From Owenia fusiformis (lineage: Eukaryota; Annelida; Polychaeta; Sabellida; Oweniidae): a stretch of DNA of 64,000 bases. The notes beneath the pieces were generated by a model. That model had not been told where the DNA came from, did not search any database, and saw only the letters and a list, made by a program, of their open reading frames with translations. A program made the position numbers and the translations under genes. The stretch's first letter is position 1. The number at the start of each line of letters is the position of its first letter. Shown here piece after piece: positions 3,847-33,200 of the stretch. The DNA is taken from NCBI GenBank assembly GCA_903813345.2, contig CAIIXF020000002.1:17553467-17617466 (forward strand), in the 5' to 3' direction.

Positions 3847-3916
3847 TCCACTATTTTCTCACGGATTATAAGAGTAAATAATTAGTAAGATGAGAATCCA
3901 TTGACAAGTACTGAAC

Positions 3917-6055
3917 ATGACAGGGACTTTAAACACAGAAGTAAGGTGCGTAATGATGGGGTTCTTTTTAGTAGTACTAGTAGGAACAATATCTGCACAA
4001 TTAGAAGGAAATCGAACAGAATGCAGTGTCACCATTAGTCGTGGAATGGATACATTAAAAGTGCAGTGCAAACCTGGCGAATTCATAAATAACATAACAT
4101 TAAAAAACATAACAAACAAGGACAACGTTAGTAATTTTGATGCATCTTATTGCCACCTCCAATGGATTCCTGATACAATATGCCTTTTTCCAGATTTGCA
4201 GAAGCTCGATTTCTCGCATAATAATATTTCATTTATACCTAGTGACATATTTCACTGTTTCTCCAATTTACGGATACTACACTTGGAATTCAATAAAATA
4301 TCGATCATTCCAACGGGACTGTTCGCTACGCTCGTACGAATTGAAGAATTCTATGTTAGCCACAATGAAATCTCAGTTTTCCAGAAGGGAGCTTTTCTCA
4401 ACAACTTTAATCTATTCGTTTTTGATGCAAGCCATAATAAACTCAAATCTCTAGATACATATATCATTCAACTATTCGGACAGGAAAAACGTCCTCTTTA
4501 CCCACTTAGTCCCAAATATAGGGGGCGCATCAAAAAATCTTTCAATTTTTCTCACAATTCAATCAATGGGTTCCATTTCACCAGTTTTCAAACAGATGCA
4601 CAAAATAAGGTTTATCTCTTTGCATTGGATTTACGACATAACCAGTTTAAATACTTCAACCTGGAAGTGTTGCAACCTTTTCGGTACGTAGTTCGTGTCA
4701 GTGAAGTGGCTGCCTTTTTTTCATTGTTGGGAATATATTTTGATATTCGTATCACTGACAATCCATTAACGTGTGATTGTCATATGTTTGAATTCTTCAA
4801 CATATTTAGGGGAGTTCTACTTGATAAGTTTCCCACCAGGTACACTTCTTGGCTAGATACCTCATTTTTGTGTATGCACCCACCAACTCTACGTAATATC
4901 ACGTTAACGAAAGTGCCTGGACATCAGTTGATATGTAACATCCACGATGGCTGCCCATCGATGTGTTCCTGCACAAGGAAGCCATACTTGAACCGACTAG
5001 TTGTGGACTGCCAGGGGAAAGATTTGGTTAGGCTTCCGAATAACCTTCCAAGCGTCAATGACGACAAGGGCGAACTCATCGATTTGTACTTGGCTGATAA
5101 TGCAATTCGAGATATACCGCAAAGACCATACTTGAAAAACCTTGGTTCCCTATACTTGCAGAGCAACCAAATTGAAGACATAGAGACGAGCGCTTTGGCT
5201 AACCTCTCTTATGTTGAACAACTAAGATTGCACAATAATTCCATTAGATACATTCCAGGTTCTTTACTAGATGTTCCTTTTCCACATCTTCAAAACATCA
5301 CACTCCATGATAACCCATTTGAATGTGATTGCTCTTCACGATCGTTAAAACATTGGCTGACGAGTCTTGTAGAAAGAAGAGTACTTTACGAGTCTCATGC
5401 TGTAATATGTACAAACGGAGATCCTATAATCGTACATGATTTCAACGAGGTTTTATGCGATATGAACTGGGGAGTGGCTGTTGGGGTGCCAACGAGTGTT
5501 ACGGTTGTTATGGTAGCAGCGCTAGTGACGTTGTACTTTTATAAAGACGTTTTTATTCTCCTTATAAGGAAGAAAAAGCGGTACCCCGAGAAACCAGTAG
5601 GAAAGATTTATGATGTATTTGTTGGATACGCCAAGGGAGACATAAGATGGATTCGAGAGACGCTGCTACCAATTCTGGAGCCTAAATACAAACTGTGCCT
5701 CCATGATCGCGATTTCAGTTTAGATATTACCTTTCCAGAAAATATTGCCGAGGCTATTGAGAAAAGTCAAAGAACCATTATGGTTCTTTCATTTAAGTTT
5801 CTTGAAGGTGATTGGTGTAAAGAGCAATTCCTAATGGCCCACAAGCAATACATGCTTCACCCCAGTCAAGCTCTCGTACCGATATTACTCGATGATTTTC
5901 CAAGAAATGGACCTATACCCAACTATATCAGGTGTTACCTCCAATCACATACATACATAGAGGTTGATAACATTCTTTTCGCCAATAGAGTGCTTGTTCA
6001 AATGCCCAAAACAAGCATATTAGAATACCAAGAAGCCGTAGAGAATCGGGTGTAA
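3917..6055 (+). CDS. Toll-like receptor, single exon, 712 aa
   Basis: This is a membrane receptor of the Toll/TLR family, expected to sense ligands through its leucine-rich ectodomain and signal through a cytoplasmic TIR domain. Visible in order: a hydrophobic signal peptide at about residues 13-27; LRRs at about 90-260; a cysteine-rich LRR C-cap (NPLTCDCH at about 282, cysteines to 340); an LRR N-cap (CPSMCSC, about 346-352); a second LRR block at about 386-465; a second C-cap (NPFECDCS, 466 to about 514); one membrane segment at 518-542; a basic stop-transfer (RKKKR, 551-555); and a TIR domain from 563 (box 1 YDVFVGY; box 2 LCLHDRD at 593-599) to about 705. The two cap-flanked LRR blocks match the multiple-cysteine-cluster (Drosophila Toll-like) architecture. 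The first ATG has A at -3; a second start at M13 (3953) would give a more standard signal peptide. It is shorter than many Tolls. The usual BB-loop PG is replaced by SLD. Confidence 0.95.
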   Translation: MTGTLNTEVRCVMMGFFLVVLVGTISAQLEGNRTECSVTISRGMDTLKVQCKPGEFINNITLKNITNKDNVSNFDASYCHLQWIPDTICLFPDLQKLDFSHNNISFIPSDIFHCFSNLRILHLEFNKISIIPTGLFATLVRIEEFYVSHNEISVFQKGAFLNNFNLFVFDASHNKLKSLDTYIIQLFGQEKRPLYPLSPKYRGRIKKSFNFSHNSINGFHFTSFQTDAQNKVYLFALDLRHNQFKYFNLEVLQPFRYVVRVSEVAAFFSLLGIYFDIRITDNPLTCDCHMFEFFNIFRGVLLDKFPTRYTSWLDTSFLCMHPPTLRNITLTKVPGHQLICNIHDGCPSMCSCTRKPYLNRLVVDCQGKDLVRLPNNLPSVNDDKGELIDLYLADNAIRDIPQRPYLKNLGSLYLQSNQIEDIETSALANLSYVEQLRLHNNSIRYIPGSLLDVPFPHLQNITLHDNPFECDCSSRSLKHWLTSLVERRVLYESHAVICTNGDPIIVHDFNEVLCDMNWGVAVGVPTSVTVVMVAALVTLYFYKDVFILLIRKKKRYPEKPVGKIYDVFVGYAKGDIRWIRETLLPILEPKYKLCLHDRDFSLDITFPENIAEAIEKSQRTIMVLSFKFLEGDWCKEQFLMAHKQYMLHPSQALVPILLDDFPRNGPIPNYIRCYLQSHTYIEVDNILFANRVLVQMPKTSILEYQEAVENRV

Positions 6056-11808: not shown

Positions 11809-11814
11809 TTTATT
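11809..11814 (-). terminator. Polyadenylation signal of the PA-TM-RING ligase
   Basis: AATAAA on the minus strand, 78 nt beyond the stop codon of the last coding exon. This would give a short 3' UTR; more distal signals also exist. Confidence 0.5.
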
Positions 11815-11891: not shown

Positions 11892-12272
11892 TTACTTAGT
11901 ACCTGGCCTGCTACTGCTGGATTTAGTCTTATCATTACAAGACATAAGAGCCTCATATTCACTGCATTCTTGATCAATGACAGATTTGATACTTTCTACA
12001 CTACCAGCACGTTGCACAATCCTGGGGGGTAAGGCATCCAGGGAGGCCGGGGCGGGGGTATGAGCAGGAGGGTGGGGGATATCCCCATCCTTGGAAGGCC
12101 AGCCACGGCCTGAGTCCCTATGGTGCAGCTCAACATCTGCTGGCTGATATCTGATCACCTCAATGCCCATGTTTGCAGGATCTGAACTTGCTGCTGTAGT
12201 TGTAATTGAGAGATCAAACCCAGACACAAGACCACTCTCTGGGTCTACAGGTTCAGGTGGAGAACCTTCAAT
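11892..12272 (-). CDS. PA-TM-RING ligase exon 7 (last coding exon)
   Basis: Acceptor TTTCTAG then ATTGAAGG. It codes residues 329-454, a Pro/Ser/Asp-rich cytoplasmic tail, and ends at TAA. The first 45 nt encode [15 protein letters not shown]. This start, with its acceptor, is repeated twice more just upstream in the intron. Confidence 0.88.
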   Translation of the reverse strand: MEGSPPEPVDPESGLVSGFDLSITTTAASSDPANMGIEVIRYQPADVELHHRDSGRGWPSKDGDIPHPPAHTPAPASLDALPPRIVQRAGSVESIKSVIDQECSEYEALMSCNDKTKSSSSRPGTK

Positions 12273-15200
12273 CTAGAAATATAAAGTTGTTTCACTTATT
12301 ATTGATGTGGATATATACATGACATACCTTTAATATTAATTTATTTACGAGACCACTCTCCGGGTCTACAGGTTCAGGTGGAGAACCTTCAATCTAGAAA
12401 TACAAAGATGTTTCACTTATTTTTATTTACTTGGATAGATACATGACATCCCTTTAATATAATTTATTTACGAGACCACTCTCCGGGTCTACAGGTTCAG
12501 GTGGAGAACCTTCAATCTAGAAAAACAAAGTTGTTTCACTTAATTATTTATTTGGGTATATACATGACTATTATTTATTAGTTCATTATACTTAGAAGTT
12601 TAATGTGGTTCCATCATAAAGGTTTTGTTCTACTTGCTTTTGCGAGCTGAAGATTCGAGGTGGAACTGCCCGTAAAAAGGACAACATGGAAGTACTTGAT
12701 CTAGGGATCAATATGGTGTGAATAGCAAATTATAAGCTAGTTAGTCTTTTAAGGATAATTCTATAAATACATGTAATCAACTTCAATCTGACAATCATCA
12801 ATTTAGTTACATAACTGTGGATTTAAAGAGAACCAATCAATTAGTTCACCTGAAAAGGCAATGGGGGTTTAGCAAAACAGACCTAGAGTCAACAACAGAA
12901 ATCTCTGAAATCTCTGAAATAACGTTCTGAAAAAACAAAATGGCCGACTTAATTAATTTGCCCAACTATCATACCAAGATTAATTTTCCAACAAAAATAA
13001 GAGAACCCAGGGGGCACTTATGGGAGCTGTGGTGATGTGTATTATTAGTCACACATGTCCCTATTTGAACCTATGTTCATGTAAGTTGTTATTGTACAAA
13101 TACAAATGCATAATAATAAGAAATGTTAGTTATTAATTTCACTGGGGACATTATCTGTGAATGTACAGACTCAATAATGTGCTGTCATCAAAATTAATGA
13201 AATTATAAAATAAGCTCTTGAAAAATTTCACGACAGAGCAGATTGCTTCAGGTATCTGAGGCTATCATGTTCTAATACTATTTAAATCTTAAATTCTTTA
13301 AATTGAATAGAATATCTGATCACCTAAATATGTTTACTTTTTAATCTTCATTTATCTGTGATATGAGCATATACCTGTACATCCTTTAAGAAATAAATCT
13401 CTTTCGCCACGCCTTAGCTTTTCTTTTAAAAAATTACCTTTTTTGTGTAACGATTTGACAAGTTTCAATTCTCCATTTATTTTGCTTTTTTAATTTTCTC
13501 ATCATCTTAGCCCATGGGATAATTTTGATTCAAGGATTTGGAATTAAGTATACAAGTAACCATATCTTATCTCATGTCCATTATTTCACTTATTAAATTG
13601 ATGCTATTTTGTTTTAAAACCAATGGCAATTACCTAATTGTATTTTATTTATGTCAATATCAGAAATGAATCCACATTTTCATTTATTTAGAACTGTTAT
13701 CATGATATAAAAGGGGCATTTCCCATGTCATATGTACATGTATATTGGGTTTATTATTCTGATTGAATATGATATCTTTCCTCTGGATAAATCCCATATA
13801 CAGTCCTTCCCAAGGGATAACTTCTATATACATACCTGAACCTGCAAGCCATATGCCTTCAGTATGTCCATCTTACATATAGGGCAACTTCTGTGTTCCT
13901 GTAGCCAAGGATCAACACAAGACTTGTGAAATAAATGGCTGAATATACAAAAATACAAAAAAAAGATATTAACATGACAAACCACAGCACAAATAAGGCA
14001 CCTTAAAGAGTATAGAGAACAATTCGAATTATAAAATGTAGAAAAGATGATCTAAAATCAGTGATCTACTTATTTTGTACTTTTAAAAAGTAGGACATTG
14101 AATTTTCTCATTTTTAAACATTTTATAAAAACATTATTCTCTACATTCTTTTCTATAGGTACAGTACATAAGTGCACTTTTTATGCAAAATTGAAAGATG
14201 AAGACCATTCTAGAAAATGAGTAAGGATCACTGCCATTTAAGAATATTTATAGAAATAGACACCAAGGGGGTCATTAACATAAACAGAAATTATTATAAC
14301 ATCATAATAAAAGAACAATGGGCCTAAGAGTTCCTAACTGTTATGAAGTTTCTGTTAATGACCCCAGGTGCACTTTACTAGTTGTAACCATGGAAATGAT
14401 GATGTCATATAATAATATGACTGTATGAGGATAACAGACTTTGAAATACTTAACATGAATAACCTGACTGCTGCTGATGTACTTCGAAAGTACATAACCT
14501 CAAGTGGACTTCAAGAGTACATTACTTCAAAAGTACATTATTTCAAGAGTACAAAAGAACGTTAATTCAAAAAGTAAATTACTTCAAGTATACATTACTT
14601 CAAAAGTAAATTACTTCAAGAGTACATTATTTCAAAAGTATATTACTTCAGGAGTACTTCAAAAGTACATTACTTCGAGAGTATATCATTTCAAGAGTAC
14701 ATTTAACCAGAACACTTTTAATCATGAATTCTTTAATCTTAATTATAGCCCTGGGAATCAAGATGTCATAAGATTACAATAGACTTTGGAATTAATTTCA
14801 TACACTCCCCTGTTAATAAGCCACAGATTATATTTCGTATTATATGTCATAAAGGTGCATTTGCTAATGAATACATGATGTAGATAAGCTTCATAAGTTT
14901 ATATAATGCATGGCATATTCATAGCAATTCATCTCTGCTTAAAGATCCCAACCTCTAATTTCATGTTTATTCATTCCATTTTCTCTGTATAATATCAAAT
15001 CTCAACATTGCTTGCTCATCAGTGTTAATTTGATACCTGTTCCCTTAATTTCCTGCAAATCCCAATTTATATATTCCGATTCATAAACCTTGACAATAGG
15101 ATGCACTTAGAACACCATAAAGCATGTTTGAAACTACAAGTAATAGAGAGGTTAATTTATACACATTAACACAAAGAGAATTTTGACATAAACATGTAAT

Positions 15201-18200
15201 ATTATGACCCACAGGGATAACTGTCTCCTTTCCAATATATATTTTCAGGGACCTAATTCCAATTTACTATTTTCTTTATAGCTTTACACTCACTTTGGCT
15301 AGTAATAATAACTATGAAGTGGAGAACTTATTCTCAGAGGACCATAATTCTATATGTTAATGTTAAGTTCTTTTAAAAACCTGTTGCTTAGCCCTCCTTA
15401 TATAATACATATGCCTACCTGCACATGTAGCTTAGCCCTCCTTATATAATACATATGCCTACCTGCATGGTAACATGCGCACAACCTCCGACTGTTTATA
15501 CTGCTCAATGCATACTGCACACTGGTCAAATTCATCACCAATTTCCTATAAAACAATAAATTGTGATGTTAAACATTGTTAAATCAAATTAAACAAGGCA
15601 TTATATAAATTGCAAAATCCACCTGCCATTTGTTACAAACGCCAAATGCTTAACACCAAACACCTACTGCCAACTGCAAAATACTAACAGACGAACAGCA
15701 TCCACAAAAATGTTGGAAACTGTAACAATATGTCACCACTTCTGGTGACATAAAAAGGCATATGGTAGACAATATGTTACTGAAAAATGAAAAACTGCCT
15801 CCTTTATATTTACCCAGCATGCCCAAAACCCAATCGGTTCCAATTTTTAAACAATGTATTAGCCACTGAAAATTTCAAATCAATCCATTAAGTGGTTTGA
15901 GCCCTTGACAGTATATTTTATGATCTTAAATGTTCAAAATGATCAATGTGGTCCTGAGCAACAAGAGTAACAAGTTTTAACCTGTCAGCCAATGATATAT
16001 CGTTGTATTTATTGTCTATGTCTATGGAGTAATAAAATTTGAAATACTAATACTACACCATAATCAGTCCTACTGTATCTTCTTTATCAACCAATAATAT
16101 AAGTCACACACGACAGTAAATTCAATAATGTAATGCAAAGATTAAAAGTACAAAAAAATAATAAAGTCTATATCACAATTCATATCTTAAATTCAGTATT
16201 GTATAATCTGTATACTTTATTTATTTGGATATGCAATAGTTTTAAACAGGATCTGGCTCTAGTCAGAGATTGAAATCTTATAAATAAATTAGGACATGTG
16301 AAGGAACTAAAAACAAAACATTTGGCACAGTGCCTCAGTCTATTATATGACAAAGGTTAAACTCAAATTTAGTAAACATCAAAAACAAGGCATCAACATG
16401 CAGAATGAGACCACCAGCCAGTTGTTACAGAGACTGAATGCTGAACACCGACCACCAAACCTCAAACACCGACCAACGAACACTGTCCACAAAAAAATTG
16501 GGGACTTAAACAATATGTTACCACTTCTGAGGTGATGACGTAACTGTATATTGATTGACAAAACCTCATTGGAAAATGGAGTCAAAAAAACAGTTAAACT
16601 CTCAGTAAAACTCTAGGTAACATTCCTTTGACCCAGACGATTAAAACATTCACTGACATATGTCATATTACTTTGCATTTACTTTCTTATTTACCAACTG
16701 ATAGTGATTCACACATTTGAATAATTCATTACAAATATGACATTCACATCTTCTTGTATATACTTTGTATAAACACTGAATAATGTTTTCTTTATATATT
16801 CATATTCAATGCCTATAGCTATTCAAATGTGAGATTTCCCCATAAAAAAATATTAAAATTATTTAAATTGAGGTATCATGTAAAATGTAGTAACACAGAG
16901 GAATGTTTGTGTACATTCTGTTACATTAAGAACCATCTGATTTGAAAGGAGAGTAAAATCTTACTTTATCTCCATTTTTAAGCTGCTTCATTGGAATTTT
17001 GCTGATAGCCTTCTTAGCAGCTATTGTCAGCCGTTTCTGAAACAGAACACCATGAATATAAATCACCCTGTACAACTATATATCTATTCACTTTATTTCA
17101 ACTTGACACCAAAATACTCTGTTGACTTATTTCTAATGGCAAAAAATAATCTTCAACCACAATATACATGTAGTAATGTTTCAAAACTTTTTTAAAGGAC
17201 AAGTCTAGGTTTGGAGAACAGTCTCTTGGGCTAACAATTTTTTTATGAAAAATATAGAAATATCACCCGAATTAAATTATGAATATTCAAAAGAGGACAT
17301 TTAAATCTACAAGATGTAAAAATATCATAATTGTCCGAAGCAGGGATATCAGTGCAGTAGACCGATTCAATAAAATAAAAGTCTCGATTTGGAGAAAGAA
17401 GTTCATCAGTATACTGCGCTAATAATATTTTTATGAAAAATGTAGAAATATCACCCAAATTAAATTATGACTATTCAAAAGAAGACATTCCAATCTATAT
17501 TATGTAAAAAAAATTGAATTTGTCTGAAGCAATGGTAACGCTCAATTAGAGTGATGAACTTCGTTCTCCAAACCGAGAATAGCCCTTTTCAACTGTTGGC
17601 AAATCGATTTTTAACTGGGCATATACTTGGTTGATTGGGTATACATTTGGTTGATTGGGTATACATATTGTTGATTGGGTATATATATGGTTGATTGGAT
17701 GTACATTAGGTTGATTAGGTATACATATGGTTGATTGGACGACATTTGGCTGAATACGTGTACATTGTTGATTGGGTATGCTTATGGTTGATTGGATGTA
17801 CATTTGGTTTACTATGTATACATGGTTGATTGGGTATGCATATGGTTGATTGGATGTACATTTGGTTTATTATGTATGCATGGTTGATTGGGTATGCATA
17901 TGGTTGATTGGATGTATATTTGGTTGATTATGTGTACATGGTTGATTGAGTATGCATATGGTTGATTGGATGACATTTAGTTGATTATGTGTACATGGTT
18001 GATTGGGTATGCATATGGTTGATTGGATGTACATTTGGTTTACTATGTATACATGGTTGATTGGATGTACATTTGGTTGGTTGGTTATAAATGTAGTTGA
18101 TTGAATGTACATTTGGTTGATTGGATGTATTTTTGGTTGATTAAGTATAAATTTAGTTGATTGGTTGTACACTTGGTTGATTGTGGAGAACTTTCCCACT

Positions 18201-21200
18201 GTGTGTATGCAATCAACTCGACAGCAACTTCCTTATCTGAGCAATTCTGACATTCAGGAAAATATATTTGCACAAAATTATTTTCAATGGGTTTTTTCAG
18301 TATGAACAATTCAACAATTGGTCCATAGTGTTTATATAAAACCACAAAGTGGGCCATTAGTCACTTCCTCCGAATCACTTTCAGTTTTCAACGACAAATG
18401 TAAATCTATTGAAATAAATGACATCACTGGAATCAAAAGATTGATATAGTTTTTTTAATTTTTTTGCATGCAGCCTAATATTTGAATTTTGAAAATGTAT
18501 GTAAATGCCAAAGTATGTACAGTTTATTGCTATAGCCATTATATCAAGTCCAATAATGCCAAGAATTGGCAATACTAAATGTATATTTATCTCATGGTAC
18601 AGGCCAATAGATAAAAAATATTGTACTGTTCCAATCCCTCTTTATGCCCCAAAGGCAGAATCAGATCTATAGAGGGTAACATTGCAAGCATAAAATATAA
18701 TTGACCCATCAATGTATCCCTTACAAAAAATAAGCTCAAACATAATATCTCCCAAAAGATCTGTGATATGTATCAATTAGTGAAGTTCAAGATTCAAAGT
18801 ACAAAGATTGGAGAAAAATGTTTACATTCTCCAAAATAATAGAAATGGTAAACATACTTGACAAATGAATGCATTATTGTAAAAATCTTTGGGCATTTTA
18901 AGAAAATAGATGAGGAATGATATGAGCCTGAAATATCCTAAAATTGAAACAATTGTCATCAAGGTCATGATTTTTCTAATGATGGATCATTGCTAGCTCT
19001 GATTCTGCCTTTAATCATATGAACTAACTGATTGTTACCAATTTTCAAATAATCTTACCGATAGGCGCTCTTTAGCATGTGCGTATCTAAACCTCTGTAT
19101 ATAGTAGAATACCAGCCAAGCTAGGGAAATGATCATCAGCACGATAAAGCTGACAGACACAAACAATACGGATGTTTTGTTGATCTGAGTATAGTTGTTG
19201 ATGACGTTGCGTCCAACAGTGATAGACATCATCACCTAATAAAATACAAAAATAATAACACTTTAACCCTTTCCTGACGTGAATATAAGAGGAAAATATG
19301 GGACTGGTGACGGATAAGTAAGAGCAGTTTTTAGGGAAAAACTGTAAATTACCTATATCCCAGGACGTATGCTTTAAATTGTATCACCTGAATACATTTT
19401 TTAAAAAGGACTATCACATTTTAACAACTTGTCAAAATTTGGTGTAAAAATACTGAATAGAACTGGAGATATTGTCATTTCATTGATGCATAGAAATAAA
19501 AATAATGGTGCCAAAAGGAGCCCATCGTCCTGAAAGGTATTATATAGTTGGGCTCCATATGGAGCCTATCGTCGTGAAAGGGTTAAGAGCCAATATTTTA
19601 GGATTAAGATTTTGTATGATACAATATTGAGTGTCAACCTTATTATTAGCTAGATCAGCTGATTACATGTTTTTGTTACAATAGCAATTCAACAAGAAAA
19701 CAGCATCATCATTTTAAGATATTTCTAGATGAAGTAATGGTTGTTATGCTAACTATAAACTTTTGGATTCAATTCTCCCACTTGAAGTGCAATGTAGATA
19801 ATAATGAAAAATAGTACTTGGTATTCACACCGGAATAGCCTGAAAACGGTAAAGTCAGATACCATTATCCACCATTTGTGACAACAGTATCTGACTTTAC
19901 CATTGTCAGGTTATCCCAGTGTGGTATTGCTATAATATTAATTGCTGTGACTATTGTTATCATGTAATGATATAATGTCTACAAAAGTTATATAATATAG
20001 ACTACCAACATTTTGAAATTTGGTTGTATTTGGAGCGAATTTGCAACCATCTGGTACGCAGGCGTACCCAGCGTACCGTACGCTACACCCATGACTTGTA
20101 TATACAGTAAAACTTGACTGATCATAACACCACTAACACAGGGACTGGCCAAAAAGTGTTTGGATTAACAAATTTCTTTTACATGTAATAGTATAGTTTC
20201 CATATAGCCTTTGAAATCTCGCTAAATCTCGTTTCTCGTGAGATTTTAAGAGACTTGCATATTAGACCTCTAATGACTTACATTACCTTCTTTTAAATGG
20301 CATATTTGAATTCAGTGAAATGTTTTCTCCTATAATAGCTTTGATTTACACAGTTATGTAATTTGAATAATTTTCTATAACAATTTAAAAAAACTTGGGC
20401 CAAATGTCCATAGATGCAATGCTAAAATTCTTTAAATCCGTGGATTATTTGTATGTCAATCAACATTTGCATGTTTAATCACAACATGTACGTAAACAGG
20501 GTCATCATGTGGTATATCATTCAGGTTTTATACAGATTCAACAAACACACTTTGATAAATCATGAAATTAAGCCACTTTTCCAAGATTTTAGCATGTAAA
20601 TGAATGGAGCTCTGGCCCGAGTTAAAAGCTGAATAAAAGATGGCAGCACGAAATTTCATTGATTTTTCTGCTATTTAGAAACTATCCTATTCATCACCAG
20701 CTTAAAAAAGACCATATAGTGTTCATATTGGGAGGTATCCAGATAAGAGAGGTGTTGAATTATGCAGGTTTTACTGTACTTAAAGAATTTCTACTTACCT
20801 TTGTGCCATTGTCAACAAGAGCTGCAATTTGTTCACCTTCCTTCTTTCGGATAAATATTGATACCACATCTGGGACTGAAAAAATATATGTATCATCATA
20901 TGAATTATGTATTAGAACAAAGATCATATCATAGAACAAAGATTATATATTAGAACAAAGATCATATCATAGAACACAGATTGTATATTAGAACATATAT
21001 CAGATATTAGAATATAGATCACATGTTAGAACATAGAACAGATATCAGAATATAGATCACACATAAGATCATAGATACTATATTAGGATTTAGATCAGAT
21101 ATTAGAACACAGATCAGATATTAGAATAAAGATCAGTTATTGGAACATAGATCAGAATTTAAAATATCAGATATTAGAAAATAGATCAGCCATTAGATTA

Positions 21201-27200: not shown

Positions 27201-30200
27201 CGTTAAAGTAAAATTCAATACAAAATGAAAGAAACTGACTCCAATGCTGTATATGGTCCCATGCTAGTTAACATATTTTTTTATTCTTCCTCGTAAAAGC
27301 ATCCAAATGGTATGATTTTTGATTTATAGGTTGCAAGAAGTATAACAGTGGCTTACATGATCTCACAAGGTGATCCATCAATGATCATGGAGTTTCTTTC
27401 CTTATGAAACCTACCCTGGTCTCAACACCTAGTGTGCTACCCTCTATCATAGTGAAGATTTTGTACTCTGAGCTCACAAGTTTGTACACTGCCCTCTAAC
27501 TAAAAGTGATGAATATATTTTAGCGTTTAACCAATCAGAGAGCACTACACAGCGAATATACTGTACCCAGAGCTAGTAAACTATCCTCTAATAACTAAGA
27601 TCGATCATGTTACAGTTTGATAATCAACAATTCTCTATCCTTGATATGACTTCAAATAGGCAAATAATAACTTAGGATTCATATCCTTGACTGCTAAATT
27701 AAAAGGAAACTAATCTGACAATTGTCGGCTCTGATTTTGCTTGTCAATAAATATACTTGGTTTATATCCTATGCCAAGTAGAAAAAAAAAATGTGAAAAA
27801 TTGAAAAAATGTGAAAAAATTAAAATTTTTCTTAGAAAACTACTAGGTATAGGATAAAGCAGTTATAATGTACGGTCAGTTTGGATATGGGGTTTTAATC
27901 CCTTGTGAGATATGCACATCTACCTTCGGTCCCTAGTCCCTACTGTCCCTCAGGTAGATATGCATATATCCCTCTGGAGTCTGGATATATAAACCCCATA
28001 TCCAAAACCTCCCGGTACATAACCCTTACTATTTATCCGTCAGATAAAAGAGTGATTTTGCATTCTTGGAAAGGGTACATACAAGAGCTAAATAAATGAT
28101 TTATCTGAAGCAAACAACCTGCTTAGCTTTTTACAATTTGATTAATATATAATAAACTACAAAGACACAAATAGTGATGTACATCGCACTTTGTAGAGCG
28201 AAATAGCAGCCATGCAATTTACCCAGCATGCCCAAAACCTAATCTGATTATGGCACTAATCTAAGTTATCTGCTCTTGCATCTGAATTTATACGGATACC
28301 GTATTCTCTGTAATTAGCGCCCAGGGCGTTTAGAAAATTGAAAATACATTATTTAGACCATTCTAATAAGCGCCCATGTATGAAAGAAATCAGAAATCCC
28401 GAGGAATTTCATGTATGGCAATTTTTCTTGACAAGAATGCATTTTCTTCAACATATTTTTATAATAATATGACAAGTGCTGTTATTGGAGAGAATACGGT
28501 AAAGATCGCTTAGACAATATTGACAGTGGTTGAAGACCCGTCTATGTCTAATTTATTTCCGGCACGCCCACTTTGTCATTATCGCCGATTACCTTCAATA
28601 TTTCCACTAGAGACTGCTGGATATCGATCTAAAGTTATACATTATTTCTAATTTGATGAGAGATCATCATTATTCGTGTAAAAGTCGTGCAAAAGTCGAG
28701 AAACATTAAAAAGAAACCAGAAAGTTCACGACCTTGACATGCGCAGAACATCTGCGCAGTAGCTTTTGAAATTTCTGAATGCCGATAAAGAACAATTCCT
28801 TCATTCATTATGGACTATTTGGAGACAATATTAGCATGGTATGGTGTGGGAAGCACCCATCGATAGATATGTATCGAGAGGATGCATAGAATTACAAAAC
28901 GCGTCGTGTTTACAGCAGTTTTAGGGTAAGTACTCTATTATCGCCCGCTCCTGGATTTTGAGAAATATTTTTTTCCTGATATATTCTTCAATTCTTGTTG
29001 ATTCCTCGATGTTTCTTGAACTTTGTGAAGCGGGGTGGGCGCTTATTAGAGAGTGGGCGGTAATTACAGAGAATACGGTAAGTGGTTTTCCTTGGATTTT
29101 GATGGCAAGATGTGGAACTTCAGCCCTTACACACAGACGTGCTCATCAGCACAACATGACAATAATATAGCTTTGAAGTACGATAAAATTTCAAATAGAG
29201 ATATGGCATCCATTTGAGATTATTCAAATCTGTAATCTTTTGATCCAAACACTGGTTTTGGAACCCTAATTGTCTTGTTCATGTTTTGTGACAAATATCA
29301 ACAAGGCATTAACATGACAAAATGTCACCACCCAGTTGCTCACAATATTATTATTTCAATGTTAAGTCAGATATGAATTTCTGAGAACTTGTAGATGATT
29401 TTGAAAAAAAAATTGGTGAAAGGAGAAGGATAACTAGACATGTAAATTGAACAAGTTCAATTTAAGACTCCAGATTTCAGACTTTTTTTAAGCTGAGTCA
29501 TCCAAATACTAGTAAGCTGAGTCATTCAGAATAAGCTGAGTCAGCTAGAATATAGACATTTAGACAACTCTTAAGAATGTTATCTTCGACTCCATTGGCT
29601 TAACATGGGAATATCATCATATCGACTTTTCGAGACTTCAAACCGCTATAACTATCTAACCAGTAGTTGGATCGAAATTTGGTTTGCAGATTCTGATTCC
29701 TGAGAAAATTCTACCCTTAATCGATAACTCATACGTTAAATTTGGAGAACTTTTTATTTTGACCTACTTTTCGGACACCATATCTTAAAAGTGGGTCAAA
29801 ATACTTTCTGACGGCAGAAGGCTAACACTATAAGCACACTCTTTGCTACCTGTATACAAAATTTTGAAGTAAATTATTAAAGTGTAGTGTCAGAATCGCA
29901 AAAATAAGGAAAAACTATGAATTTGACCTAGATTTTGACCTAGGCATTTTGGTGTCCAAATTTTAAAGCTAGATAGCCTTCGAGGTCCCCTTCTTTTATA
30001 GGCTTTCAGAATGTTAAGCTGTACTCAGTTTATATCTGGTATTTTACATTTCAAAAAAATCTTTTTTCTCATTGACATAACATGGGGCACCAAATTTAGC
30101 GATTTTTGAGCTTTCAAAACGCCATAACTTCCGAACCGAAAGTCGGATTGAAATTTGGTTTGCAGATTCAGATTCCTGGGAAAATTCTACCCTTAATTCA

Positions 30201-33200
30201 TAGCTCATATGTCAAATTTGGAGAACTTTTTATTTTGACCTACTTTTGGACACCATATCTCAAAAGTGGGTCAAAATACTTTCTGACGGCAAAAGGCTAA
30301 CACTATAAGCACACTCTTTGCTACCTGTATACAAAATTTTGAAGTAAATTATTAAAGTGTAGTGTCAGAATCGTAAAAATAAGGAAAAACTATGAATTTG
30401 ACCTAGATTTTGACCTAGGCATTTTGGTGTCCAAATTTTGAAGCTATGTAGCTTTTGAGGTCCCTTTCTTTTATAAGCATTCATTATGTTTAGCTGTACT
30501 CAGTCTATATCCTGTATTTTACACTTCGAAAAAGTCTTTTTTCCCATTGACTTAACATAGGCACCAAATTTAGAGATTTTTGAGCTTTCAAAACGCCATA
30601 ACTTCCGAACCGGAAGTCTGATCCAAATTTGGTTTGCAGATTCGGATTCCTGAGATCATTCTACACTTATTTCATAACTCGCATGTTGAATTTGGAGAAC
30701 TTTTTGTTCTGACCTACTTTCCGGACGCCATATCTCAAAATCGGTAAGAGTAATCAAAATTCTGATGTCATATCTTTGCTTCGCCTTTTTCTAAGCTACA
30801 CGATGAAAAAAAGATGAAGGAGTTACAAAGAATATTGACGAAGATATGATGAAGAATGTTGAAAATGTAAGATTTGACCTAGTTCTTGACCTTTGACCTA
30901 GATAAAAATTTGACATAATTTCCCAGAAAGCCAGATACAGTCTTTAGTTAACCATGTAAGTTGGATTAAGTAAGATGCTATAGTTGGAGAGAAAATCTGT
31001 TAGGAGGAAGAAGAAAGAAAGAAAAAGAAGAATAACTAGATTTTGGAAATTGAACGAGTTCAATTTCAGACTCCAGATCTAGACTTTTTTTAGCCGAGTC
31101 ATCCAGAATAAACCAAGTCATCCAAAATAAGCTAAGTCATTAAGAAAAAGAAGGATGGATGGATGGATGGATGGATGGGTGGATAAAAAAGGAAGGATAG
31201 GATAGAATAGGAAGGAACGATAGGATAGAATAGGAAAGAAGGATAGAATAGAATAGGAAGAAGGGATAGAATAGGAAGGAGAGGATACGAAGCAAGGGTA
31301 GATAGGAAGGATAGGATAGGATCAGAAAGGAAGGATGGATGTATTTTCAATATTTTCTTCTCTATTCTTGACTTTCTATCAGGATACCATCAGATCGATT
31401 TTTCTTGAAATTTCAAAACGCCATAACTTCTGAACCGGAAGTCGGATCGAAATTTGATTTGCAGATTCGGATTCCTGACAAAATTCTACCTCTAATTCAT
31501 AACTCAAACATTAAATTTGGCGAATTTTTATTTTGACCCACTTTTCGGACACGCCATAACTTCGGAACCGGAAGTCGGATTGAAATTTAGTTTGCAGATT
31601 CGGATTTCTGAGAAAATTTTATTTTTAATTCATAACTCAAACGTTAAATTTGGAGAACTTTTTATTTTGACCTACTTTTCGGATACCATATCTCAAAAGT
31701 GGGTCAAAATACTTTCTGACGGCAAAAGGCTAACGCTATTAGCACACTCTTGGCTACATGTATACACAATTTTGAGGAATATAATTAAAGTGTAGTGTCA
31801 GAATCACAAAAATAAGGATAAACTATGAATTTGACCTAGATTTTGACCTAGGGATTTTGGTGTCCAAATTTTGAAGTTAGGTAGCCTTTGAGGTTCCCTT
31901 CTTTTATAGGCTTTCATTATTTTAAGCTGTACTTAGTCTATATCTCGTATTTTACACTTCAAAAAAATCTTTTTTCCCATTGACATTACATGGGGCACCA
32001 AATTTAGCGATTTTTGAGCTTTCAAAATGACATTACTTCCGAACCGGAAGTCGGATCGAAATTTGGTTTGCAGATTCGGATTCCTTGGAAAATTCCATAC
32101 TTAATTCATAACTCACCCGTTAAATTTGGAGATTTTTTTATTTTGACCTACTTTTCGGACACCATATCTCAAAAGTGGGTCAAAATACTTGCTGACGGCA
32201 AAAGGCTAACACTGTTAGCACACTCTTGGCTACACATATACACAATTTCGAAGAATATAATTAAATTGTAGTGTCAGAATCGCAAAAATAAGGAAAAACT
32301 TTGAATTTGACCTAGATTTTGACCTAGACCCTGGACCGGATTTGGACCTAGACTTGACTTGGACCTGGACCAACACTAGACTTGGACCTGGACTGGACCT
32401 TGACTTGGACCTGGAAATGGACTGGACTGGCATTTTTTCAATTTTTTTTACTTTTCTTGACTTTCTATAAGGGTACAATCAGATCGATTTTTCGCGAAAT
32501 TTTAAAACGTCATAACTCCTGAACCGGAAGTCAGATTTCAATTCAGTTTTCAGATTCGGAATCCTGAGAAAATTTCCTATAAGACCAATATCCTGGACAT
32601 TGGATTCGGAGAACTTTTTTTTGGACCTCGTTTTCGGACACTGATATCTCGAAAACGGTTCGAGATATCAAAAATCTAAATCGTATTACGTTATTCTACT
32701 TTTTTATGAGGAACACAATGAAAAAAACCTGGATCAAAAATATTGAAGGACGACCGAGATAATGGGAAAAAGTGACAAAGTACTGGATTTGACCTAGTTC
32801 TTGACCTTTGACCTAGATAAAAATTTGACCCTATTTCCCACCAACTAGATACTATACCTAAATTGACCATATAATAGTCTTGAAAAGATACCTTATAGTT
32901 GTTGAGAAAACTTGATCAGTATAAGAATAATAAGAAGAATAAGAATAAGAAAAGAGGCAAAAACAATAGACTCCAGATTTTCAATCTGGAGTCTAATAAG
33001 AAAACAGGCAAAAACAATAGACTCCAGATTTTCAATCTGGAGTCTAATAATGGATATCTTTAACCTTTAGCGTGCTGCCCGCGGACTCGTCCGCCGAGAC
33101 TAAAATGTCTCTCACAACTGCCGGCGGACCCGTACGCCCGATTTCAAACTTTTAAAAACTTTACTTTTTCGCGCCATTCGTATTGTCCAATTAGATTGCC

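Follow-up and report, generated by a model that had tools for sequence, protein, structure and literature searches.

Tandem exon duplication has already been described as a source of both alternative splicing and introns, and the array presented here is a partial-exon example of this process. The connection between tandem exon duplication and alternative splicing was reportedly drawn by Kondrashov and Koonin in 2001, and intron gain by tandem duplication is said to have been treated by Zhuo et al. in 2007 and by Gao and Lynch in 2009. In the accessible portion of their article, Ivanov and Pervouchine (2022; PMC9013439) report that tandem exon duplication feeds alternative splicing and that some of the copies are unannotated and possibly expressed. 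Lehmann et al. (2010; PMC2891723), in the available extract, deal with the gain of introns and splice patterns by tandem duplication. Clusters of mutually exclusive exons are likewise made up of tandem exon copies, according to the excerpted text of Ivanov et al. (2018; PMC6071210), and exon clusters of the myosin heavy chain gene (Mhc) are known in other animals, as stated in the available passages of PMC3912159. A limited literature search returned no paper on the frequency of arrays that span splice sites.

The array that we describe is located in a 64,000-nucleotide stretch of contig CAIIXF020000002.1 of the annelid Owenia fusiformis (assembly GCA_903813345.2, positions 17,553,467 to 17,617,466; hereafter the window, to which positions refer unless a contig handle precedes them). 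It lies over the acceptor of the last coding exon of a gene for an E3 ligase of what we take to be the PA-TM-RING class. Local tandem copying of exon sequence within a gene is a property that it shares with the duplications covered by the available text of PMC9013439. It differs from tandem exon duplication in that copying was confined to an acceptor and the 45 nt that follow it and did not extend to a whole exon, in that the donor found in the array adjoins (by eye) the duplication junction instead of being a copied exon end, and in that the intron between the copies would measure 55 nt. In the cases described in the extract of Lehmann et al. (2010; PMC2891723), as in the ligase array, a duplicated splice-site sequence gives alternative patterns at once; their origin is a coding proto-splice site, whereas here an existing acceptor and its intron tail were copied. 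Clusters of mutually exclusive exons also consist of tandem copies, but the last unit of the ligase array is not an equivalent full copy of the others, since exon 7 is 381 nt long and just 45 nt of it are repeated, and no special local RNA fold emerged: the predicted folding of 331 nt across the array was nothing unusual (z 0.02).

The ligase gene and its product

The gene is situated on the minus strand and comprises seven exons, which join into 454 codons without interruption. In the gene model, exon 1 (47585-48056) contains the ATG chosen as the start and encodes the PA domain; it is followed by exon 2 (20799-20875), exon 3 (19059-19235), which by inspection contains a hydrophobic, membrane-spanning-like stretch, and exon 4 (16965-17036). 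Exon 5 (15463-15545), placed by the gene model together with a splice-site scan, carries the first half of the RING, and exon 6 (13836-13938), which ends in the donor CAG|GTATGT, carries the second half of the RING-H2. The last coding exon, exon 7 (11892-12272; 381 nt), contains the stop codon, about 78 nt beyond which a possible polyadenylation signal, AATAAA (11809-11814, minus strand), was recognised by eye.

Within the 454-residue model, the PA domain (PF02225) occupies residues 112-174 (E 2.1e-9) and the RING-H2 domain (PF13639) residues 273-316 (E 3.9e-14), with a hydrophobic stretch of 24 residues, seen by eye in the translation, between them. The top match among solved structures is RNF13 (E 3.1e-17), which aligns with the RING at residues 252-323; RNF128 matches across the PA part, and ZNRF3 is also among the solved relatives. 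PA domain, hydrophobic stretch (as read by eye) and RING-H2 are common to this protein and the PA-TM-RING E3 ligases RNF13, ZNRF3 and RNF128. It is set apart from them by the tail encoded by exon 7, which, including the surroundings of the 15-residue repeat, had no Pfam match at E 0.1. When the ligase protein was compared with the genome, three matches were obtained, every one at its own locus, and hence no processed copy. Elsewhere in the window, an open frame of 716 amino acids on the plus strand (3905-6055) resembles, by inspection, a Toll-like receptor, with leucine-rich repeats, a membrane stretch and a TIR-like end.

Anatomy of the triplicated exon 7 acceptor

Tandem Repeats Finder delimits the array on the minus strand at 12229-12568 (period 121, 2.8 copies, 90% matches), and a repeat search revealed three copies with spacings of 121 and 123 bp, in agreement with an earlier note on this DNA that had proposed three tandem units of acceptor and exon start. 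Each unit joins approximately 76 nt of intron tail, acceptor included, to the 45 nt with which exon 7 begins. The first exon bases of units 1, 2 and 3, numbered from upstream, are 12516, 12393 and 12272; together with 13836 and 12328, the ends of exon 6 and of the candidate exon described below, they coincide exactly with the junction coordinates that the earlier note gave.

Unit 1, the farthest upstream (12394-12516, minus strand), possesses the acceptor AAACAACTTTGTTTTTCTAG|A and the 45-nt copy of the exon start; it lacks a GT where unit 2 has its donor, reading GGATGT instead, and a 1-nt deletion, which the earlier note does not record, brings an in-frame TAA after 20 codons. Unit 2 (12273-12393, minus strand) comprises the acceptor, the 45-nt copy, a further 21 open nucleotides, a donor and a short intron tail, and it is the only unit of the array that combines an acceptor and a donor of its own with an open frame. 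The candidate cassette exon thus delimited (12328-12393, minus strand) would be 66 nt long, encode 22 residues in phase 0-0 and end in AAG|GTATGT at 12328, just as had been claimed, and it would be separated from exon 7, which is itself unit 3, by a candidate intron of 55 nt (12273-12327, minus strand), a length on which the earlier note is silent. By eye, the surroundings of this donor adjoin the duplication junction and are not closely matched by any sequence upstream of unit 1, which makes a copied exon end an improbable source of the donor. The difference between GTATGT and GGATGT may reflect either a gain in unit 2 or, as the earlier note had it, a loss in unit 1.

Across the 45 exon nucleotides, units 1 and 2 are identical, and unit 3 differs at two positions, both synonymous. 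Overall, units 1 and 2 differ by seven substitutions and two gaps, all outside these 45 nt. The contrast between zero differences in the exon part and nine events elsewhere is expected by chance with a probability of 0.013-0.015, or of 0.035-0.039 when seven events are counted; the three-way contrast with the nearest 30, 40 or 50 intron columns gives p values of 0.20, 0.07 and 0.05, respectively. That units 1 and 2 are better kept in their exon part could point to constraint, and their identity may also stem from gene conversion or chance; the indication of coding constraint on the array copies is suggestive only.

Splice-site strength and intron length

Donor and acceptor weight matrices were built from dynein introns of the same assembly; 48 of these introns were cut, and 47 could be placed by reading frame, profile continuity and GT-AG. 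Since the model was fitted on introns placed by maximum score, it flatters real sites; the reference scores are leave-one-out values. The acceptors of units 1, 2 and 3 reach 8.2, 8.4 and 7.7 bits, with 22, 23 and 20 of the 47 real acceptors scoring lower. These values are so alike that the local score does not mark 12272 as the preferred site. It should be noted that acceptor scores offer limited guidance, because five other AGs of intron 6 (12849-12926) score between 8.1 and 11.1 bits, and none of the acceptors in the scanned stretches of a kinesin array (see below), its last copy included, reached 4 bits.

The donor of unit 2 scores 11.5 bits and exceeds 42 of the 47 genuine donors. Intron 1, 26.7 kb long, has 1523 GT sites, every one below 10 bits; the entire window, both strands considered, contains 22 sites at or above this value, among them real exon ends and the unit 2 donor. 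With respect to unit 1, the earlier note had correctly read GGATGT in place of the donor; the weak 45-nt option that it assigned to this unit (CTC|GTAAAT, present in both upstream units) does not hold as a usable site, since at -1.4 bits it ranks below every one of the 47 reference donors. Two further candidates in unit 1 were rejected. CAA|GTAAAT after 12431 (4.4 bits) would produce an 86-nt exon that is out of frame and contains the TAA, and AAG|GGATGT was not counted as a donor even at 5.9 bits (nine of the 47 donors are lower), a value that it attains only because the pseudocount penalises the missing T weakly.

Splicing from 12328 to 12272 requires the 55-nt intron, and the shortest of the 86 dynein introns that we placed measures 115 nt. 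These introns comprise 47 from DHC_N2 (minimum 117 nt, median 293 nt) and 39 from AAA_6 (minimum 115 nt, median 291 nt). The first sample contained all DHC_N2 pairs with a gap below 640 (48, of which all except L024 were placed); the second, from AAA_6 and drawn after the first, contained the 40 shortest gaps (404 or less; all except L060 were placed) and was thus chosen more narrowly than by the criterion of below 640 noted beforehand. Both samples are biased towards short introns, which makes the contrast with 55 nt stronger. Intron lengths were also estimated from the edges of hits in five families (77 + 113 values), and none of these 190 lies below 100 nt (minimum 115). The set overlaps with the 86 placed introns and includes a few pairs in one open frame (C1:57373xxx, C7:17010xxx) that may be in-frame insertions. 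The reference rows used were 76 of 80 for DHC_N2, 73 of 88 for AAA_6 and 44 of 92 for myosin (picked as neighbours), and an uncounted part of the rows for kinesin and TCP1, with the kinesin array deliberately left out. Single hits could conceal very short introns whose length is a multiple of three; of four over-long hits picked by eye, one contained an in-frame, stop-free intron, of 147 nt, and the other three yielded no in-frame candidate intron above threshold.

The upstream intron of the candidate exon (13836 to 12393) has an ordinary length of 1442 nt, so that, of its two flanking introns, the downstream one of 55 nt falls outside the sampled range. Such a length is not impossible, since human introns of 37-65 nt exist: the available text of PMC4463651 lists 22 conserved introns of this size, nine of which its authors say were shown to be spliced, and that of PMC8363638 describes a 56-nt intron of HNRNPH1 in connection with SPF45.

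Duplicated splice sites elsewhere in the genome

Tandem duplications across splice sites were clear in four of the 86 dynein introns, and in five if the borderline case L042 is added, which was flagged by the probe alone and exactly at its threshold (23 of 32); shuffled introns reach this threshold in one of 860 cases. The script count, L042 included, was 4 of 47 in the first sample and 1 of 39 in the second. The clear cases are a 39-bp duplication at a donor (L011), two copies of a 121-bp unit that repeats a donor and 17 nt of the exon end (L054), five copies of a 71-bp unit with five successive acceptors TTTTACAG|GCC (L055), and seven copies of a 30-bp unit at a donor (L098). A duplicated exon in a dynein gene (L059; C12:24489500-24490300) is absent from this base rate, since it belongs to the AAA_6 rows that were dropped; here, the acceptor and roughly the first 120 nt of the exon recur upstream, and the two acceptors score below 4 bits (upstream copy) and 10.2 bits (downstream). 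In a kinesin gene (L058; C2:23266345-23269188), a 159-bp unit consisting of an acceptor and an exon start is present in 17.9 copies that are 97% alike, with 45 bp between the exon-like stretches.

The ligase gene itself contains a second duplication, of 44 bp in 2.0 copies with 97% matches (15382-15467, minus strand), over the donor of exon 5. The two donors CAG|GTAGGC, after 15463 and after 15419, both score 11.3 bits, and the second, by eye, runs straight into a TAG. Two of the six ligase introns are thus affected, for which the chance at a rate of 4/86 is about 0.03 by our own arithmetic, a calculation chosen post hoc. Seen against this background, the ligase array looks like one among many such duplications in this genome. 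We infer a simple cause for the persistence of duplications that span splice sites: when a junction is duplicated, the site and its exon both remain available in an undamaged copy, which is not so when the duplication falls inside an exon.

In the window as a whole, tandem arrays listed by Tandem Repeats Finder cover about 12% of the sequence; one in intron 1 (29637-30740) consists of a 475-bp unit in 2.3 copies with 89% matches. A myosin heavy chain gene (L006; C9:37986009-37994334) gives twelve tandem hits to the same motor-domain stretch, presumably a large cluster of mutually exclusive exons, and most of these hits have splice sites recognisable by eye. Three hits to one stretch of AAA_6 (about 56-164) in a dynein gene (C9:7082562-7087388) are possible full exon duplications.

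Interpretation of the array

Judged from the DNA, it seems to us rather probable that the upstream units are a tolerated duplication whose acceptors serve as decoys, with splicing proceeding mainly from 13836 to 12272. About 76 nt of intron tail and the 45 nt that open exon 7 occur in three consecutive copies, the last of which retains its acceptor intact and runs on into the complete exon 7, and this would have made the event tolerable. Splicing at that acceptor would still yield the 454-residue ligase, with the two upstream copies left as pseudo-exons or decoy acceptors inside intron 6. We infer accordingly little use of these copies and assign the role of main junction to 13836 to 12272. 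Against this interpretation stand the strength of the unit 2 donor, which matches the best real donors, the likeness of the three acceptors in score and the possible constraint on the exon nucleotides of the two upstream units. In an alternative reading, unit 2 would be a cassette exon that some transcripts include by splicing from 13836 to 12393 and from 12328 to 12272, thereby adding 22 residues to the cytoplasmic tail. An average acceptor, a donor stronger than all except five of the 47 real ones, an open frame in phase 0-0 and a continuous product of 476 amino acids are consistent with such an exon, as is the splicing of human introns of like size according to the accessible parts of PMC8363638 and PMC4463651. 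Its 55-nt intron, however, has to be set against the 86 placed introns, none of which is shorter than 115 nt, and a TGA-type branch site, identified by eye, would be just 36 nt from the donor. The cassette would also leave constraint on unit 1 unexplained, because this unit has no donor. We therefore regard inclusion of unit 2 as unlikely. The earlier note had seen here the birth of an exon caught in progress; the duplication of acceptor and exon start, the open frame and the strong donor on which this proposal was based all stand, and it is weakened by the intron length and by the frequency with which splice-site duplications without obvious function occur in this genome (4/86).

The upstream acceptors could, alternatively, be used as terminal ones, with 12516 or 12393 joined to exon 6 and no further splicing. 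The resulting ligase, of 348 or 361 amino acids, would end soon after the RING and lack the normal C-terminal tail. Both read-throughs were computed; they place the stop in the last exon and share the AATAAA, and there would be no trigger for decay of the truncated transcript because no junction lies downstream of the stop. The three acceptors score similarly, 12516 is the closest to the donor of exon 6, and the nearest of several equal acceptors is often favoured. Every transcript that used 12516 or 12393 would, however, lose the tail, and we consider this outcome quite unlikely. A working switch, in which the acceptors would give the normal tail, a tail-less ligase or, via the 55-nt intron, the 22-residue insertion in a genome that habitually iterates splice sites, appears distinctly improbable to us; the iteration frequency behind it is about one intron in 20 in two dynein samples, with up to 18 acceptor copies in the kinesin gene. 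Tandem arrays are a common site of assembly errors, and the extra units might be missing from the animal. This we find scarcely credible: the units have diverged by substitutions and indels, which speaks against a simple assembly stutter, the array is just 340 bp long, and its sequence found one match in the 498-Mb assembly of 525 contigs, at its own locus, with no second copy.

Implications

By itself, the ligase array, in our view probably a tolerated duplication with decoy acceptors, is one more tandem duplication over an exon boundary. If a few per cent of the introns of O. fusiformis carry duplicated sites, this genome would provide a natural series that ranges from 2 to 18 near-identical splice sites. 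Such a series would serve to ask how the spliceosome picks between equal sites, and would show how often the copies turn into exons or introns.
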